The notes beneath the pieces are model-generated. The model was not told the origin of the DNA. It searched no databases and saw only the letters and a program-made list of their open reading frames with translations. A program made the position numbers and the translations under genes. A stretch of 20,608 nt of DNA from a virus: the IMG/VR virus record IMGVR_UViG_3300032675_001641, positions 1 through 20,608 of that record. One strand, written 5' to 3'. Positions within the stretch are counted from its first letter, which is position 1. Every line of letters begins with the position of its first letter. Shown piece after piece: positions 1,572-20,608 of the stretch.

Positions 1572-2426
1572 TCAATTACAGTAATTAGCGGCCCAAACAG
1601 CCGAGAGTATGATTCGTTTGTTGGCGCCGAGAGCTTTCCAGTCGCGTGCATCTTTGCAGCGAGGTGGACAGATAATCTTGACGCTTTTGCATGTTTTAGA
1701 TGCCAATAGCTTGTTCGCCAATGCTTTTCCGCCCTCTTGGCCTGGGTAGAATATTGATCCGTCTGGGCGATGTTTTTGTTCGTCGTGGTCGGCGAATATA
1801 GCTACATCGCGTTTAGTCCATGTCGGCAAAAGGGATATCAACAGATCGGTTCCGCCGGAGCATGACGGGCGCCCCACGGCGTCGAGGTCCATATCCAAGA
1901 GTGCGCAGGTTGATGTTGGACCTTCGGGCAGGCATAGTGGACCGTCATTGGTGAGCGATTCGGGAATAAACAGTCCTTCGCGTCCGCCCCTGACGGCGAA
2001 TTTTTTACCATCGTCTGTGCGTAGTCGGATACCGAGTACGTCGCCCTTGCTATTGGTCATTGGGAACGTCCACGCTCGGCTTTGCAGATTCCAGCCGATA
2101 TTTAAGCGTTTAAGGTTAAGGGGGCTAAGCCCCATCTTGCCGGCAAATGCGGCGAGGTGGTCTGTGGTGATTCCCGCCTGGAACTGACGGGACATAATAG
2201 CCAGTTCGGCCGGGGTCAAAGGGGCAGGTGGGCGGTCGTAACTGTAAGTTATCGGTTTTACAGATCCGTCCAGTTTATGAATCCAGCCACCTTTGGGTAG
2301 TTCCTTGCCGCTGGCCACCCTCATACAGTGGGCGGCTTTCCCATCGGAGGTAACGCTACACCAATCCGGACGACCACAAACCTGACAAGGTCGGTCTTTA
2401 CGGCAACGTAGCCAAGAGGATGTCAT
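1572..2426 (-). CDS. Phage DNA primase, zinc-finger and TOPRIM domains
   Basis: Predicted DnaG-type primase that makes RNA primers for phage replication. The N-terminus has a zinc-finger arrangement, C14-x2-C17 with C23 and C34 nearby. The middle (about 110-160) matches the RNA-polymerase-like part that precedes TOPRIM. The TOPRIM motifs follow: LCLPEGPTSTCALL with the conserved glutamate E168, then VAIFADHDEQK with D213 and D215, then EGGKALANKL. At 284 residues it lacks any helicase domain, unlike P4 alpha or T7 gp4. That job may fall to the adjacent superfamily 2 helicase. The ATG at 2424-2426 overlaps the helicase stop (ATGA) and has AGGAG 8 nt upstream, so translation is probably coupled. 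Confidence 0.82.
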   Translation of the reverse strand: MTSSWLRCRKDRPCQVCGRPDWCSVTSDGKAAHCMRVASGKELPKGGWIHKLDGSVKPITYSYDRPPAPLTPAELAIMSRQFQAGITTDHLAAFAGKMGLSPLNLKRLNIGWNLQSRAWTFPMTNSKGDVLGIRLRTDDGKKFAVRGGREGLFIPESLTNDGPLCLPEGPTSTCALLDMDLDAVGRPSCSGGTDLLISLLPTWTKRDVAIFADHDEQKHRPDGSIFYPGQEGGKALANKLLASKTCKSVKIICPPRCKDARDWKALGANKRIILSAVWAANYCN

Positions 2427-4222
2427 GCTGCGGTCTCCTGGCTACGTTGGATATTGACGCGTTTCCATCCATTTGCCTTTACGCGGTCGATGATTTTGGA
2501 TGCGTCGGATATGGAAATTTCTTTCAATTCATCGGGCCGATATCCGGCTCTGGTTAACACCCTCATTTGGCCCATGGTTGGCTTAGTAATAGATTGCGAA
2601 ATTATCCGTCCGGCTTCTCCCTTGGTGACCCTGGACCAGTCTATTTCGAATCCGCGCCGCCGGAGGCATTCGATTTGTGCCGGGGTTGCCATGGGCAATC
2701 CATCCCAATTAGTCAGACGCGGTGGTTTAATATCGTAGTAATCGAACGGGTCTACGCTTCCGGTGCGATATTGCGATTGAGCGATTATGCCCTTGCGGCG
2801 TTCTTTCTCGGCTTCTTCGTTAAGCCGCTTGCGTTCCCGCTCCATGATAATTTCTTCGGCGCTGGTTTTGAGCAAGGCCATGATGTCGGCGGGGGCGCCG
2901 GCCGCTTTTGCCTTCTGCTTTGCTCGTTCTTTGGCCGCGTCGGAATAGTCGCCGCCGAGCACGTCTGCGACTTGGATAAGTTTGTGTTTTCCGCAGTTGC
3001 CTACGAAGTCGATGATTTCGCAGAATGCCTTACGGCTGGCCGCAATGCAGGCGCAACGATGTTCAGCCGATGCCAGCGTATTAAGGTGTTCGGCGATTTC
3101 ATCGGCTGGCCGAATTCCCCGGCCGATCATCTGTTCGAATAACGCGGCGGATTTTGTCGGCCTAGCCATGGCGATGACTTCAACACCCGGCAGGTCGGTG
3201 CCTTCGGTGACGATGCCGACGTTGCAAAGTATTTGGAATTTACCGCTTCCGTATGCCGCGAATAGTTCTTTGCGTTCTTCTTCGGGGGTCTTGCCGCATA
3301 CCATTTGTGCGCATCCCGGCTTGTGCCGGTTAAGTATTTCCGCGAATCTTTCGGCATGCGCCACGGTAACGCAGAAGACCAAGGTCTGCCGGCCATTGGC
3401 AAGCTTCAATACTGGCGTAGCCATGCCGTGCAGATTTTTCTCGAATTCCAGAATTTCCGCAAGCTCGCCTTCGTTTAAGTCTCCGGCGGTAGTGCGTACT
3501 TTCGACAGGTCAAGGCCATCGACAGTGACGGTTGTTTGCCGTACCGGCACAATCCATCCATCTTCGATTCCCTGATGAATTGGGTACTGGTGGGCGACCG
3601 ACTCAAAGAGCTTTCCCATCGCCTTGTCGTCGCCCCGCTTGGGCGTTGCGGTGACCCCCAAAATACAAAGTTCTGGGTTGTTTTCAGAAAGCCACATTGG
3701 CACCCGAACCCATTGTGGTGAAATGTATCGGTGCGTTTCATCGAGCACTACCAGGGAAAAATCGGTGGGCTTAAAGCGATCTTCCACGCGGCGATTCTTG
3801 GTATGTTTCGATACGCTGATAAGCGTTTGTATGCTAGCGATAATAACCTTAGCGTGCCGGCCTGCGAATTGATCGGCTTTTTCGACGTGGCATCTGATGC
3901 CGGTTATGGTCCGTATTTTTCGCGCCGCCTGGTCCATGAGTTCGGCGCGGTGGGCGATAATGAGAACCTTTTTTTCTGGATAGAGTTCTGTGAATCGCTT
4001 GACGATGTGGGAAAACGTCACGGTTTTTCCCGTGCCCGTCGCGGCCGTCATTAGTGTACGGCGGACGCCGGCGTCAAACGAACCCATTACGGCGTCAAGC
4101 CCCGCGTGCTGATATGGGCGCAGCCCTAATGCGTCAATCGCCGTTTCCTGGGGCGGCAACGGCACAGCGGCTGGCACCGTTGGCTCCGGTGCAGGCAACG
4201 GCTCAAATAATCCGTAGGTCAC
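2423..4222 (-). CDS. Superfamily 2 DEAD/DEAH-box helicase
   Basis: ATP-dependent helicase or translocase of superfamily 2 (SSL2/RAD25-like group). Visible motifs: the RPYQ Q-like motif (35-38), Walker A ATGTGKT (61-67), DETH box (161-164), motif III TAT (191-193), motif V region EGTDLPGVEV (340-349) and motif VI QMIGRGIRP (364-372). After the two RecA lobes comes a Cys/His-containing stretch (about 389-412), a charged helical segment, and a C-terminal tail of repeated short helices (ATPAQIECLRRRGFEID and relatives) often seen in phage versions. It probably unwinds DNA at the phage fork or origin. The start is GTG at 4220-4222: AGGAGG is 7 nt upstream and the codon overlaps the ParB stop as GTGA. 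Confidence 0.88.
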   Translation of the reverse strand: MTYGLFEPLPAPEPTVPAAVPLPPQETAIDALGLRPYQHAGLDAVMGSFDAGVRRTLMTAATGTGKTVTFSHIVKRFTELYPEKKVLIIAHRAELMDQAARKIRTITGIRCHVEKADQFAGRHAKVIIASIQTLISVSKHTKNRRVEDRFKPTDFSLVVLDETHRYISPQWVRVPMWLSENNPELCILGVTATPKRGDDKAMGKLFESVAHQYPIHQGIEDGWIVPVRQTTVTVDGLDLSKVRTTAGDLNEGELAEILEFEKNLHGMATPVLKLANGRQTLVFCVTVAHAERFAEILNRHKPGCAQMVCGKTPEEERKELFAAYGSGKFQILCNVGIVTEGTDLPGVEVIAMARPTKSAALFEQMIGRGIRPADEIAEHLNTLASAEHRCACIAASRKAFCEIIDFVGNCGKHKLIQVADVLGGDYSDAAKERAKQKAKAAGAPADIMALLKTSAEEIIMERERKRLNEEAEKERRKGIIAQSQYRTGSVDPFDYYDIKPPRLTNWDGLPMATPAQIECLRRRGFEIDWSRVTKGEAGRIISQSITKPTMGQMRVLTRAGYRPDELKEISISDASKIIDRVKANGWKRVNIQRSQETAA

Positions 4223-5142
4223 GGCATAGCCTCCTGCTTTTCGAGGAAGCTTCGATAGTGGAACTGGGATACATAACCAGTCTGTTTACAGACGCGGCAA
4301 CCAGGCCCACCGCATTGGCGGCAAACAGAGTGAGGAGCCGCCCCCTCAAGTTCTCGCAAAAGTTCCCGATATTTTGCATGAAGATCATCTTCCCGCAGCC
4401 AATCATTATTCAGAGCAGCGCGGATTGCGTTGGCCCGTTTGTACCATGCCATAAGTTCGCGGACGAGCAATTTTATATCAGGCAAAACGGCAAACGCCTT
4501 TGCAACAGAATCTTGTTCTATTGGGGTTCCGGTTTCGTCTTTTGGCGGCTCTGGTTTTTGGGATATTGGAGTGTCTTTGGGAGGGGTAACGGGGTAGCTT
4601 TTTCCGTCCCTTCCGGTGCGTTCTGTCGGGGGGGGTGATTGATCCCGTTTTGTGTCCAAAATGCGTTCTGGCGCAACGGCAGGGGGTTTTTGGCTTGATC
4701 CCGGATCAACCTGGGCTTTTCTGATGGCCTCAATAAAATCGCGCCGGACGCCAATATATTCGGCTATCAAAGACGTGCTATCGTTAGGTTTTAATTCGAG
4801 GTACGCTTTTACCGCCGCCTCTTTGGTTGCCCGGTCCCGGCGCAGGCTGGTGGGTGCCTTGTTTGCGCCGATAGCCAGCATAACAGCATCTTGTTTTACG
4901 CCTGGTCGAATTTCGCATTCGATTGAGTCGGCGTCGGCCTGGGCATGAGCGGCGCGACGGTGGAACCCGTCCCACAGCCAGTATGACTCCCCATCGTAAA
5001 CGACGCCTATAGGTGGCAGCGGAACGTCATTTGTGACCAATTCGGCGAGTTCGGCGATCCAGTCTTGGTCTAAAGTCAGACGCATCTGGGTTCCGCCGTC
5101 TATGCGTATTGCGCCGATGGGCAAGAATTTGGTAGCACTCAT
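4219..5142 (-). CDS. ParB/Srx-domain protein with C-terminal zinc knuckle
   Basis: First gene of the leftward operon. Residues 5-80 form a ParB N-terminal (Srx-like) domain: LPIGAIRIDGGTQMR, LPPIGVVYDGESYWLWDGFHRR with the conserved G-F-H-R-R at 59-63, and a C-terminal E-C-E-I-R-P-G strand. In ParB proper this fold binds CTP. A helix-turn-helix-like stretch follows (about 108-142), then a long proline-rich linker carrying the TGRDGKSYP motif (176-184) seen in ParB-like regulators. The protein ends in a probable zinc site, C274-x2-C277-x4-C282-x2-C285. I see no partner ParA, so a plasmid-type partition role is not supported. A DNA-binding role in replication or early-gene control is more likely, but is inference. 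The start has AGGAAG upstream. Confidence 0.8.
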   Translation of the reverse strand: MSATKFLPIGAIRIDGGTQMRLTLDQDWIAELAELVTNDVPLPPIGVVYDGESYWLWDGFHRRAAHAQADADSIECEIRPGVKQDAVMLAIGANKAPTSLRRDRATKEAAVKAYLELKPNDSTSLIAEYIGVRRDFIEAIRKAQVDPGSSQKPPAVAPERILDTKRDQSPPPTERTGRDGKSYPVTPPKDTPISQKPEPPKDETGTPIEQDSVAKAFAVLPDIKLLVRELMAWYKRANAIRAALNNDWLREDDLHAKYRELLRELEGAAPHSVCRQCGGPGCRVCKQTGYVSQFHYRSFLEKQEAMP

Positions 5143-15435: not shown

Positions 15436-15460
15436 TCAAGGCCGAAGGAATTTTTGACCC

Positions 15461-15474
15461 GGCCGGAAACGGCC
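15461..15474 (+). promoter_or_regulatory. GNRA-capped hairpin upstream of capsid gene
   Basis: GGCCG-GAAA-CGGCC, a 5-bp GC stem closed by a GAAA tetraloop, ends 6 nt before the AAAGGA ribosome binding site of the major capsid gene. It has no T run, so it is not a terminator. An mRNA-stabilising or ribosome-site-exposing role is inferred. Confidence 0.45.
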
Positions 15475-15495
15475 ACTCTGAAAGGATTATATACC

Positions 15496-16644
15496 ATGGT
15501 TGATACAAACGTATCCGTGGTCGTTCCGGGCAACCGGATTACCCTGTTGGACATCGTGAAGGCCAATGGCAGCGACGGCGTTGTCGGGCTGGTCGATGAA
15601 ACCATCCGCGCTCACCCCGAAGTGATGGTCGGGGCGGCGCGCACTATCAAGGGCATCAACTACAAGACCCTGATCCGCAAGAGTCTTGGCAGTGTCGCGT
15701 TCCGCGACTTCAACAGCGGGAGCGGCGTGGTCAAGGCGACCTACGACAATCAGTTGATTGAGACCTTCCTGCTCAATCCGCGTATCGAGGCCGACAAGGC
15801 GGTTGCCGATGCTGCCGAAGACGGTGCCGAAGCCTACATCTCCATGGAAGCCACCGCCGTCATGGAAGCCTCCATGCAGCTCCTCGGCCGGCAGTTCTAT
15901 TACGGCCGCCGCACCGCCGAGAATGGCGACCTCAAGGGACACCCCGGCCTGCTGGATTATGTCGATCCGGCGTTCGTCTACCCCGCCGGCGGTAGTTCCG
16001 TCACGACCAACGTCACGACCTCATCGGGAAGCGCCACGCTTTCTAGTGTCACCGTGACGGGCATTGTGGTCGGTATGCAGATCACCGCAACGGGCGTCCC
16101 CGTCGGCACGCTCGTTACCGCCGTTGGCACCAACACCGTGACCATGAGCGCCAACGCCACGGCCACCGGGACCGTTTCCGGCACGTTCGACGGTTGCTCC
16201 TCGGTTTACTTCGTCGCCTTCGGCCAGAACAAGGTCCAGTGGGTGTTTGGCAACAACGGGCAGATGGCCATGGCCCCCACCCGCATCGGCGACATTTTCA
16301 CCCCCGATGGCGGCCACGTCACCGGGTATATCAGCGAGTTGGAGGCCCGCCCCGGCCTGCAATGCCTCAATCGCTACTCCATCGTCCGCATCCAGGGCCT
16401 CACCGGCCAGGCCGGCTATGGCCTGACCGATGCCAAGCTCGGTTCCGCCCTGGCTCTGCTGCCCGCGGCGTTCCGCCACACGATCAGTGACATTTTCATG
16501 TCCGTTCGTTCCGGCGAGCAACTCCGCGCCAGCCGTACCGCCGTGAACCCGACCGGCGCTCCCGCTCCTACGCCGGTGGATTTCGAGCAGATTCCCATAC
16601 GGTACTCTGACTCGATCTCCAACGTGGAGCCTGACAGCCTGTAA
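15496..16644 (+). CDS. Major capsid protein with inserted beta domain
   Basis: 382 residues; shell subunit of the head, recognised by position after the protease and scaffold and by the sequence VGLVDETIRAHPEVMVGAAR, RTIKGINYKTLIRKSL, DKAVADAAEDGAEAYISME, GRQFYYGRR and GHPGLLDYVDP, a pattern I associate with capsid proteins of Planctomycetota-type phages; the core likely has the HK97 fold. Residues about 168-232 form a Thr/Val/Ser-rich insertion (VGMQITATGVPVGTLVTAVG, NTVTMSANATATGTVSGTF), after which the core resumes with SVYFVAFGQNKVQWVFGNNG. The ATG at 15496 has AAAGGA 9 nt upstream; a TTG at 15454 is unlikely. Confidence 0.82.
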   Translation: MVDTNVSVVVPGNRITLLDIVKANGSDGVVGLVDETIRAHPEVMVGAARTIKGINYKTLIRKSLGSVAFRDFNSGSGVVKATYDNQLIETFLLNPRIEADKAVADAAEDGAEAYISMEATAVMEASMQLLGRQFYYGRRTAENGDLKGHPGLLDYVDPAFVYPAGGSSVTTNVTTSSGSATLSSVTVTGIVVGMQITATGVPVGTLVTAVGTNTVTMSANATATGTVSGTFDGCSSVYFVAFGQNKVQWVFGNNGQMAMAPTRIGDIFTPDGGHVTGYISELEARPGLQCLNRYSIVRIQGLTGQAGYGLTDAKLGSALALLPAAFRHTISDIFMSVRSGEQLRASRTAVNPTGAPAPTPVDFEQIPIRYSDSISNVEPDSL

Positions 16645-18733: not shown

Positions 18734-19261
18734 ATGAGCAACCCCCTTTTTTCCCTCGGCGCTAACGCCAAACTCTACTACGATCCGACCACCAGCAACG
18801 GAACCGTCACCGGCCACGTCAGTTGGGGCGGGACCGTCACCGGCGGCGTCCACGTCGGCGCCAACACCAACACCAACCTGGTCGAAATCAAGGGCGTCAA
18901 CGATGTCACCTTCGAGGGCGACAGCGAGACCACCGACGTTTCCGCCCGCGACGGCCAGGGCGAGAAGTGGGAGACCAAGGCGCTCAAGGTGACGAAACTC
19001 ACGGTCAAGCTGATCGACCGTGCCGGCACCGACAGCGGCCAGCAGGCGCTCTTCAGCAACTACCTGGACAACAGCGGCGAGTTTGTGTCGGTTGCGGCCC
19101 TCAGTGGCAATGCCTCCAACAGCGGAAGCTACGGCATTATCAGTGATTTTCAGGTGAAGGATTGGAAGCGGGCCGAGCCGATCAATGGCCACCAGGCCGT
19201 TGACATTTCGCTGATCCGTTGCCCGTCAACGACCCCGACAGAAGCCGTTCGCGTGCCATAA
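18734..19261 (+). CDS. Major tail tube protein
   Basis: 175 residues; predicted tube subunit of a long non-contractile tail. The signature is NLVEIKGVNDVTFEGDSETT, DVSARDGQGEKWETKALKVT and KLTVKLIDRAG, a beta-sandwich order common to tail tube proteins, followed by a C-terminal SGSYGIISDFQVKDWKRAEP and a DISLIRC strand. The N-terminus has a short internal repeat (GTVTGHVSWGGTVTGGVHVG). GGAG precedes the ATG. It is followed by the two-frame tail chaperone gene, as in lambda V-G-T order. Confidence 0.75.
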   Translation: MSNPLFSLGANAKLYYDPTTSNGTVTGHVSWGGTVTGGVHVGANTNTNLVEIKGVNDVTFEGDSETTDVSARDGQGEKWETKALKVTKLTVKLIDRAGTDSGQQALFSNYLDNSGEFVSVAALSGNASNSGSYGIISDFQVKDWKRAEPINGHQAVDISLIRCPSTTPTEAVRVP

Positions 19262-19290
19262 TTTTGCGTCATCACACAACAGGAGAAGTC

Positions 19291-19752
19291 ATGCACGGGT
19301 TCAAGGACAACAAAGACAGGGCATGGGTTCTACAACTCGATGCTCCAGCGGCCAAGCGTATGAAGGCGCTGGCCGCCGCCGATATTCAGGACGCCATTAA
19401 GGGCGGGGAAACCAACCTGATTGTAAGGCTGGACAACGACCCCTGCCTACTGGTGGAAACCCTTTACGCCGCCCTCAAGCCGGCAATTGACGCCCTCGGT
19501 CTGACCCCCGAAGACTTCGCTGCCGGCCTGGGCGGGTGCATTGATGGAGCCGCCGACGCCATGCGGGAGGAAATAATAGATTTTTTCCCCCGGTCCCGCA
19601 GGGCGATGCTGCGGGCGGAAGTGGACAAGATGAAGGAAGCGACGACGGCGGCGGTGGAAAAATTGAAGTCTCTGTCGTTGGATTCGCTCTTGAACTCGCT
19701 GCCATCATCGGTATCTCCCCCGACGGCTATTCCCTCCGAGAGTTGTACCTGA
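19291..19752 (+). CDS. Tail assembly chaperone G (zero-frame product)
   Basis: 153 residues, mostly helical: residues 1-80 hold AWVLQLDAPAAKRMKALAAA and LIVRLDNDPCLLVETLYAAL, then the DALGLTPEDFAAGL region. The lambda gpG-type protein binds the tape measure protein and, with a frameshifted G-T form, guides tail length assembly. ATG 19291 has AGGAGA 4-5 nt upstream; the TTG at 19219 would overlap the tail tube gene. After the slippery site (19581-19587, near residue 97-99) the zero-frame tail becomes Lys/Glu- and Ser-rich, typical of unselected sequence. The stop overlaps the downstream ATG (TGATG). Confidence 0.75.
   Translation: MHGFKDNKDRAWVLQLDAPAAKRMKALAAADIQDAIKGGETNLIVRLDNDPCLLVETLYAALKPAIDALGLTPEDFAAGLGGCIDGAADAMREEIIDFFPRSRRAMLRAEVDKMKEATTAAVEKLKSLSLDSLLNSLPSSVSPPTAIPSESCT
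19581..19615 (+). promoter_or_regulatory. Programmed -1 frameshift signal in tail chaperone gene
   Basis: The heptamer T-TTT-TTC (19581-19587) is in exact zero-frame phase after the GA of a GAT codon. A 7-nt spacer (CCCCGGT) is followed by a perfect stem CCCGCAG (19595-19601) / CTGCGGG (19609-19615) with a 7-nt loop. The -1 frame from this point is open through to the T ORF stop at 19946. All parts of a bacterial -1 frameshift cassette are present, in the gene where tailed phages normally have one. Confidence 0.85.
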
Positions 19753-19946
19753 TGGCAGAGGCGACGCAGAAGGCGCGATGGAATCATACTGCGCCGATCT
19801 TGGCCGCCCTTTACAATTGGATGCGTGACCCAAAGAGCAAACCCGATCCCTACACGGCCAGCGATTTCAACCCGTTCGCGCCGAAAAAGACCTTGCCCGT
19901 CCTGCCGGTCGAATGTCTGGGCAAGTTAAAGTTTGACGGAGACTGA
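19752..19946 (+). CDS. Tail assembly chaperone T domain, expressed as G-T frameshift fusion
   Basis: The -1 frame is open from 19587 to the stop at 19944-19946. From 19752 it reads MAEATQKARWNHTAPILAAL, then YNWMRDPKSKPDPYTASDFN and PFAPKKTLPVLP. The W-x-H-T-A-x-x-L-A-x-x-Y-N and late D-F-N-P-F elements match the T part of phage tail chaperones. The meaningful homology seems to begin before the ATG, at about AIIGISPDGYSLRELYLM, which can only be translated by frameshifting. The predicted G-T fusion has 218 residues (99 before the shift, 119 after). Some independent initiation at ATG 19752 is possible but has no good ribosome binding site. Confidence 0.72.
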   Translation: MAEATQKARWNHTAPILAALYNWMRDPKSKPDPYTASDFNPFAPKKTLPVLPVECLGKLKFDGD

Positions 19947-19947
19947 T

Positions 19948-20427
19948 ATGCTCGCCATCGGCAAAACCCTGGTTATGTTCGACAAGCTCAAGGTGATGAA
20001 CCTGATGAGCAAAGCGACGTATCAGGCGCTTCTCAAGGCGGCATCTTATGTTTGGACGCGGGAACGCACGTCGATGAAGCAGCGGGCGCACGGCAAGTAT
20101 GCTCCCCCAGGCACGGCACCCTTCACTCACGGTTGGACTGACAGGCAGGGCAAGAGCCACAGCGGCAACCTGAAGGCCAAGGCGCTCAACCGCTTCGCCT
20201 ACGACCTGAGTACCGGCAGCGCGGTTATCGGCCCGATGCCGTTTGCTAAAGGCGAAGCGCCGCGGAAACTGGAGGCTGGCGGCGACGAGACCGTCACCTG
20301 GGGCCACAAGGGCAAGAGCCGCACCATCCACATTCGCCCGCACCCGTTCATGGGGCCGGCGCTGGAGAAGGAGCTTGAGGCCGGCAGCATCCCCGCGGCG
20401 TGGGCAAACTCGTTGAAAGTAGGCTGA
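19948..20427 (+). CDS. HK97-gp10-like tail/neck component
   Basis: 159 residues. The pattern HGKYAPPGTAPFTHGW, then GNLKAKALNRFAYDL, AVIGPMPFAKGEAPRKLEAG and IRPHPFMGPALEKELEA is that of HK97 gp10-type (lambda Z-like) proteins, which sit at the head-tail junction. ATG 19948 directly follows the chaperone TGA. In most lambda/HK97-type phages this gene comes before the tail tube gene, so its place between chaperone and tape measure genes is notable. The call rests on the PPG...H-G...L and R-P-x-P-F-M-G-P-A-L motifs. Confidence 0.65.
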   Translation: MLAIGKTLVMFDKLKVMNLMSKATYQALLKAASYVWTRERTSMKQRAHGKYAPPGTAPFTHGWTDRQGKSHSGNLKAKALNRFAYDLSTGSAVIGPMPFAKGEAPRKLEAGGDETVTWGHKGKSRTIHIRPHPFMGPALEKELEAGSIPAAWANSLKVG

Positions 20428-20428
20428 T

Positions 20429-20608
20429 ATGTCAGACGCAAGTGCAGTACGAGCCGGGCGAGCCTATGTCGAGCTTTACACCACCAACAACAAACTGTCG
20501 GCCGGCCTGGATGCCGCCGGGCGCGAGGTCCGAAAGTGGGGCGCGGACATAATGAAGGTCGGGGCTGGCGTGTTCGCCGCCGGTTCCTCGATCTCCGCAG
20601 CCATGGTC
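20429..20608 (+). CDS. Tail tape measure protein, N-terminal part (runs off right edge)
   Basis: 60 codons, open to the window end. MSDASAVRAGRAYVELYTTN, then NKLSAGLDAAGREVRKWGAD and IMKVGAGVFAAGSSISAAMV. The N-terminal amphipathic helical repeat followed by a glycine/alanine-rich helix with K-V-G-A-G is a common beginning of tape measure proteins, which set tail length. It follows the chaperone genes directly, as expected. ATG 20429 begins one base after the previous stop. Only the start is present, so length and downstream domains are unknown. Confidence 0.7.
   Translation, partial: MSDASAVRAGRAYVELYTTNNKLSAGLDAAGREVRKWGADIMKVGAGVFAAGSSISAAMV

Follow-up and report, generated by a model that had tools for sequence, protein, structure and literature searches.

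Gene order and reading frames at the locus

The stretch of DNA analysed here, which we will refer to as the window, is a virus record of 20,608 bases in which a head module (terminase GpA, a lambda-type portal, an S49 protease and the major capsid protein) is followed by a tail module that ends inside a tape-measure gene at the end of the window. The order within the tail module is a tube-like gene, a G/T-like pair, an ORF and the tape-measure gene (Table 1), where the first of these (18734-19261) is called tube-like from its position and size. The ORF that separates T from the tape-measure gene (19951-20427, 158 aa) had no family match. Elsewhere in the window, the minus strand at 2423-5142 carries a DEAD-type helicase-like gene (2423-4222) and a ParB-like gene (4219-5142), both described from their translations.

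Table 1 Positions of the G/T-like genes, the putative frameshift elements and the downstream search anchor in the window
Feature	Position	Strand	Evidence
G-like tail assembly chaperone gene, zero frame, 153 aa (ATG start, AGGAG upstream)	19291..19752	+	ORF; homologues precede the tape-measure gene in 67 IMG/VR and 78 GTDB loci; AlphaFold2 pLDDT 93
Shine-Dalgarno-like 5' element GGAGG (within GGGAGGAA), with 10 nt between its end and the heptamer	19566..19570	+	GAGG at equal spacing in 60/87 clusters
Slippery heptamer T_TTT_TTC, zero-frame phase	19581..19587	+	Same codon in 69/87 clusters; T_TTY core in 85/87
Overlapping in-phase heptamer T_TTC_CCC, product unchanged	19584..19590	+	TTTCCCN in many, not all, relatives
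T-like -1 frame: 119 codons past the shift, up to a TGA stop at 19944-19946	19587..19946	+	T domain conserved in 145/145 relatives and in the -1 frame of each; relatives weakly match Phage_tail_T
Dual-coding overlap: C-terminal helix of G (zero frame), linker and start of T domain (-1 frame)	19588..19749	+	Mixed two-frame substitution pattern; predicted helix 101-127 of G
3' stem-loop: 7-bp stem, 7-nt loop, 7 nt after the heptamer	19595..19615	+	Sequence; family-level folding peak at the same position
Tape-measure protein N-terminus, cut by the window end; search anchor	20429..20608	+	PHROG 2854 tape measure, E 0.016; 80 related loci

G's -1 frame opens at 19545, and translation that passed into it at the slippery heptamer would yield a G-T fusion of 218 residues. 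The first ATG, GTG or TTG of this frame is the TTG at 19743; as it lies within a conserved T motif, the motif begins before any usable start. An earlier reading of this DNA, made from its letters without database searches (the sequence-only reading), had proposed a TTTTTTC heptamer in zero-frame phase, a -1 frame open for 119 codons to 19946 with a 218-residue product, and T-like motifs that precede any usable start codon; our analysis bears out all of this, down to every coordinate of the cassette.

Relatives of the pair and the identity of its predicted products

Neither G, T nor the fusion had a convincing match in Pfam, PHROGs, 50,697 phage records or 72,556 plasmid records, and direct IMG/VR searches with any of the three returned only near-identical contigs of the same virus. 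Because the gene matched no library, we used the N-terminus of the tape-measure protein, encoded about 480 bases downstream of the T stop, as a search anchor: a masked probe alignment was searched against IMG/VR and the region upstream of each match was inspected. Rows 2 and 3 of this alignment were invented masking probes, and a tblastn comparison with the sequence of the window itself confirmed the matches; they were then judged on G and T only, neither of which was part of the probe. Relatives of both G and T were present in 67 of 80 IMG/VR loci, and in all 67 the T frame was the -1 frame of G. A search of GTDB genomes with the T alignment likewise found both in 78 of 80 loci, with the -1 relation in 78/78. 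In about half of the IMG/VR relatives the tape-measure gene directly follows T, while in others up to 3.7 kb lie between them.

Two further routes to relatives were tried and abandoned. Among phage records, the major capsid protein (15454-16644) matched only Akkermansia phage Chantilly, at 26% identity to its major head protein, and we saw no G/T pair in the tail region of that phage. The other was the protease match to a 44.5-kb virus contig (L012): contig and window have the portal and the S49 protease (56% over the query fragment) in common, but their tail modules are unrelated, which points to module exchange.

Proteins were aligned independently of DNA, and 145 sequences (including the window, with one truncated locus left out) were clustered at 80% nucleotide identity into 87 clusters, which are the units of the comparisons below unless stated otherwise. 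The nearest relatives of the window are approximately 40% identical to it in protein. Nearly all of the GTDB relatives, and most relatives overall, come from Planctomycetota, so a planctomycete is the most likely host of the window phage; the few others (Bacteroidales, Nitrospira, Caulobacterales etc.) are metagenome bins and may be mis-binned.

The T part weakly resembles Pfam family Phage_tail_T (PF06223) in sequence. Specifically, 22 of 47 relatives matched this family in their T part at E-values up to 0.01 (best 3e-6). When 18 proteins were scanned singly, the window's own T and six relatives had no match at E ≤0.01, and the remaining eleven scored 17-23 bits, below the family's gathering score of 25.9 bits. 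For G, we found no significant family, sequence or fold relative, solved and predicted structure libraries included; its matches in BFVD were all insignificant (E about 0.4 to 3), and several of them are named tail assembly chaperone. Direct comparison of lambda G and T with the window's G and T also gave no significant similarity.

Conservation of the slip site and its flanking elements

At the level of sequence, comparison of the relatives shows the frame relation between G and T, selection on the slip nucleotides, the positioning of 5' and 3' elements around them and the lack of a start codon for T. The slip site reads T_TTT_TTC in 69 of the 87 clusters, far more often than chance would give, T_TTC_TGC in 5, T_TTT_TCC in 4, T_TTT_ACC in 3, T_TTT_TAC in 2 and T_TTC_TTC in 2, with two clusters having other sequences (one of these, L064, has nine A's nearby). 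Most of the 18 clusters in which the full heptamer is absent keep the T_TTY core, which is exactly a Z_ZZN tetranucleotide, the minimal site for a -1 shift (PMC5009743). On a tree of G-T these classes need 12 changes, and T_TTT_TTC occurs on all major branches. In 86/87 clusters the codon just ahead of the first Phe has T as its last base, compared to 11.9% of codons in these genes (p = 2e-78, a nominal value, as are all p-values here, since the clusters are partly dependent), and where this codon encodes Asp it is GAT in 63/63. Pairwise changes within the slip codons are likewise rare at third positions (24 of 262, vs. 109 and 129 at positions 1 and 2), whereas upstream in G the zero-frame third position accounts for 10,145 of 16,625. 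Third codon positions are frozen at the slip only: in the overlap, changes fall on the third positions of both frames, and past the G stop the fast position is the T-frame third. The sequence-only reading had held that loss of the heptamer in close homologues or stops in the -1 frame would speak against it; the heptamer or its core is retained in the proportions given in Table 1, and no stop lies between the slip and T in any of the 87 clusters.

The T frame is at least 119 codons long in 87/87 clusters, and within 40 codons of the slip it contains an ATG in a single cluster and any start codon in 9 (zero frame: 63 and 84). The first of two comparably improbable alternatives makes T a short protein in its own right, produced by translational coupling, with ribosomes terminating G and restarting at an overlapping ATG. 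Such an overlap does exist in the window, where the G stop TGA (19750-19752) and a T-frame ATG (19752-19754) together read TGATG. A restart there would, however, truncate the T domain, whose conserved part starts about 20 codons earlier, and the TGATG arrangement is not conserved because relatives have their first T-frame start anywhere between 148 nt ahead of the G stop and 113 nt past it. Coupling would also leave unexplained both the frozen third positions at T_TTT_TTC and the -1 relation in 145/145 loci, and we consider it very unlikely.

For ribosomal frameshifting, the flanking sequences provide candidate stimulators. Both dnaX and an estimated 56% of frameshifts in IS elements have a 5' Shine-Dalgarno sequence as a major feature (PMC5009743). 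In the family studied here, a GAGG at a spacing of exactly 10 nt precedes the heptamer in 60 of 87 clusters and a GGAGG in 36, an element that the sequence-only reading had missed. It falls on a conserved Glu-Glu of G, written GAG-GAx, the first Glu being GAG in 62 clusters and GAA in 3, vs. a ratio of 347:168 elsewhere in G. Downstream of the heptamer, the 7-nt spacer, perfect 7-bp stem and 7-nt loop described in the sequence-only reading are all present: the spacer CCCCGGT (19588-19594) leads into a stem of CCCGCAG (19595-19601) and CTGCGGG (19609-19615), i.e., 7 Watson-Crick pairs, around the loop GGCGATG. As a measure of chance, perfect stems of 7 bp or more with such spacing follow 0.23% of window positions; the fold energy of the stem region in the window is ordinary for its composition (z from -0.3 to -1.6). 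Across 47 clusters, the mean folding z-score was -1.18 just 3' of the site, the strongest of 47 positions along the gene, which averaged -0.24. No Rfam family was matched. Of the codon-level conservation that the sequence-only reading had suggested looking for, TTTTTTC is thus conserved across the family while the paired stem bases are not, the structure being kept there in position and not in sequence.

One clade, mostly from Phycisphaerales (L114, L123, L129, L140, L145-L167 and similar loci), has T_TTC_TGC in place of T_TTT_TTC, and mostly a near-invariant 8-bp stem (GCCCGAGG/CCTCGGGC) 4 nt downstream. Such natural swaps, in which a single-tRNA site takes the place of the tandem heptamer and the other elements of the cassette stay, would make the contribution of each element testable.

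The same tract could in principle be read by another route, in which RNA polymerase slips on T6C5 and inserts a base into the mRNA, so that ordinary ribosomes then read G-T. T6C5 is similar to known slippage tracts, and a T5C5 tract in an IS630-type element of Roseiflexus does slip with a hairpin adjacent to it (PMC5009743). In that element, however, the hairpin is 5' of the tract and a base is deleted, insertions being excluded (PMC5009743), whereas the window has its hairpin on the 3' side and would require an insertion. Moreover, in many relatives the T6 is followed by CAG or CGG without a C run, lineages with T_TTC_TGC or T_TTT_ACC have just 3-4 T's, and a Shine-Dalgarno-like element would act on ribosomes; we thus give polymerase slippage as little credence as coupling. 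That the frame change is a sequencing error or the mark of a decayed gene, as a lone metagenomic contig could carry, is practically inconceivable: an independent contig of the same virus (L006) shows 4 differences in 7,388 bases and none in 19241-20361, which rules out an assembly slip, and the -1 relation recurs in 145 relatives.

Proposed frameshift and comparison with known systems

We consider it highly probable that the locus represents a tail-assembly-chaperone -1 frameshift of a long-tailed phage, most likely one infecting a planctomycete, in which a slip on T_TTT_TTC aided by GGAGG and the hairpin produces G-T. Judged from sequence, the pair has the sequence features of a G/G-T system, i.e., two overlapping ORFs between a tube-like and a tape-measure gene, the second of them in the -1 frame and without a usable start, and a conserved, in-phase slip site. 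Under this model, most ribosomes would stop at G's own stop codon to give the 153-aa G, while a minority would be held by anti-Shine-Dalgarno contact with GGAGG upstream and by the hairpin downstream. On the heptamer, one tRNA-Phe would leave TTT and re-pair with the TTT that overlaps it, the tRNA-Phe after it would exchange TTC for TTT, and the shifted ribosomes would read on to the T stop. We infer that frameshifting occurs, at an efficiency that, by analogy with lambda, would make the fusion a minor product relative to G, and that the products act as chaperones: as in lambda, G may coat the tape-measure protein and the T part may recruit tail-tube subunits.

G extends 162 nt past the heptamer in the window and 123-264 nt (median 192) in the family, compared to 15 nt in lambda. 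As G has about 54 more codons past the slip, it does not share its C-terminus with G-T. In the AlphaFold2 model of G, the zero-frame stretch past the slip is a predicted helix (residues 101-127), while the -1 frame is predicted to form a low-confidence linker followed by a helical T domain. According to these models, G is not simply contained in G-T and the two would have alternative C-termini. We tentatively propose, as a serious possibility that falls somewhat short of being the probable one, that the long overlap is functional, with the slip picking between two C-termini (the G-only helix or the fusion-only linker and T domain) and not merely extending the protein, and that in several lineages single-tRNA slippage (T_TTC_TGC, T_TTT_ACC) has taken over from tandem slippage (T_TTT_TTC), with the Shine-Dalgarno-like element and usually the hairpin retained.

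The mechanism itself is known; what is new is a large, unannotated family and an architectural variant with a longer gene overlap and an additional upstream signal. Our search of the open-access literature found no paper on this tail-chaperone family of planctomycete phages. These results extend the tail-chaperone frameshift to an unannotated family of Planctomycetota phages and prophages, from a phylum in which phage isolates are few, and offer an annotation rule for finding a missing T half: a T_TTY core with GAGG 10 nt upstream and structure a few nucleotides downstream.

Among the closest known systems is gpG/gpGT of phage lambda, whose mechanism has been established and whose G/G-T frameshift is conserved among long-tailed phages (PMC5009743). 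Both systems have the order tail tube, G/T, tape measure, and a -1 shift at an in-phase heptamer gives T in lambda and would give it in the window, whose family has a T part weakly like Phage_tail_T. Unlike the window, lambda slips on GGGAAAG and its G ends soon after the heptamer; the positioned 5' Shine-Dalgarno-like element and 3' hairpin also set the window's family apart from it. In E. coli dnaX, the Shine-Dalgarno spacing is about 10 nt. That gene likewise combines a 5' Shine-Dalgarno stimulator, an in-phase heptamer and a 3' hairpin (PMC5009743), but it is a cellular polymerase gene in which A_AAA_AAG shifts ribosomes with about 50% efficiency to an early stop. Phage P2 gpE/gpE+E' resembles the window in having a T-run slip site in a tail-assembly gene (T6G, with T7G and predicted T7C in relatives; PMC3931495). 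Its E' overlaps E in the -1 frame by 37 nt (PMC3931495), which is short next to the window's overlap, and P2 and its relatives are myophages with no sequence relation shown to the window's family. Finally, the tail assembly chaperones of SEA-PHAGES actinobacteriophages have a frameshift in the same gene, with Shine-Dalgarno-like and structural features as predictors (PMC10885494), but the mean distance from slip to in-frame stop is 26 nt there and 36 nt in the Xu set (PMC10885494), vs. 162 nt in the window and a family median of 192 nt.
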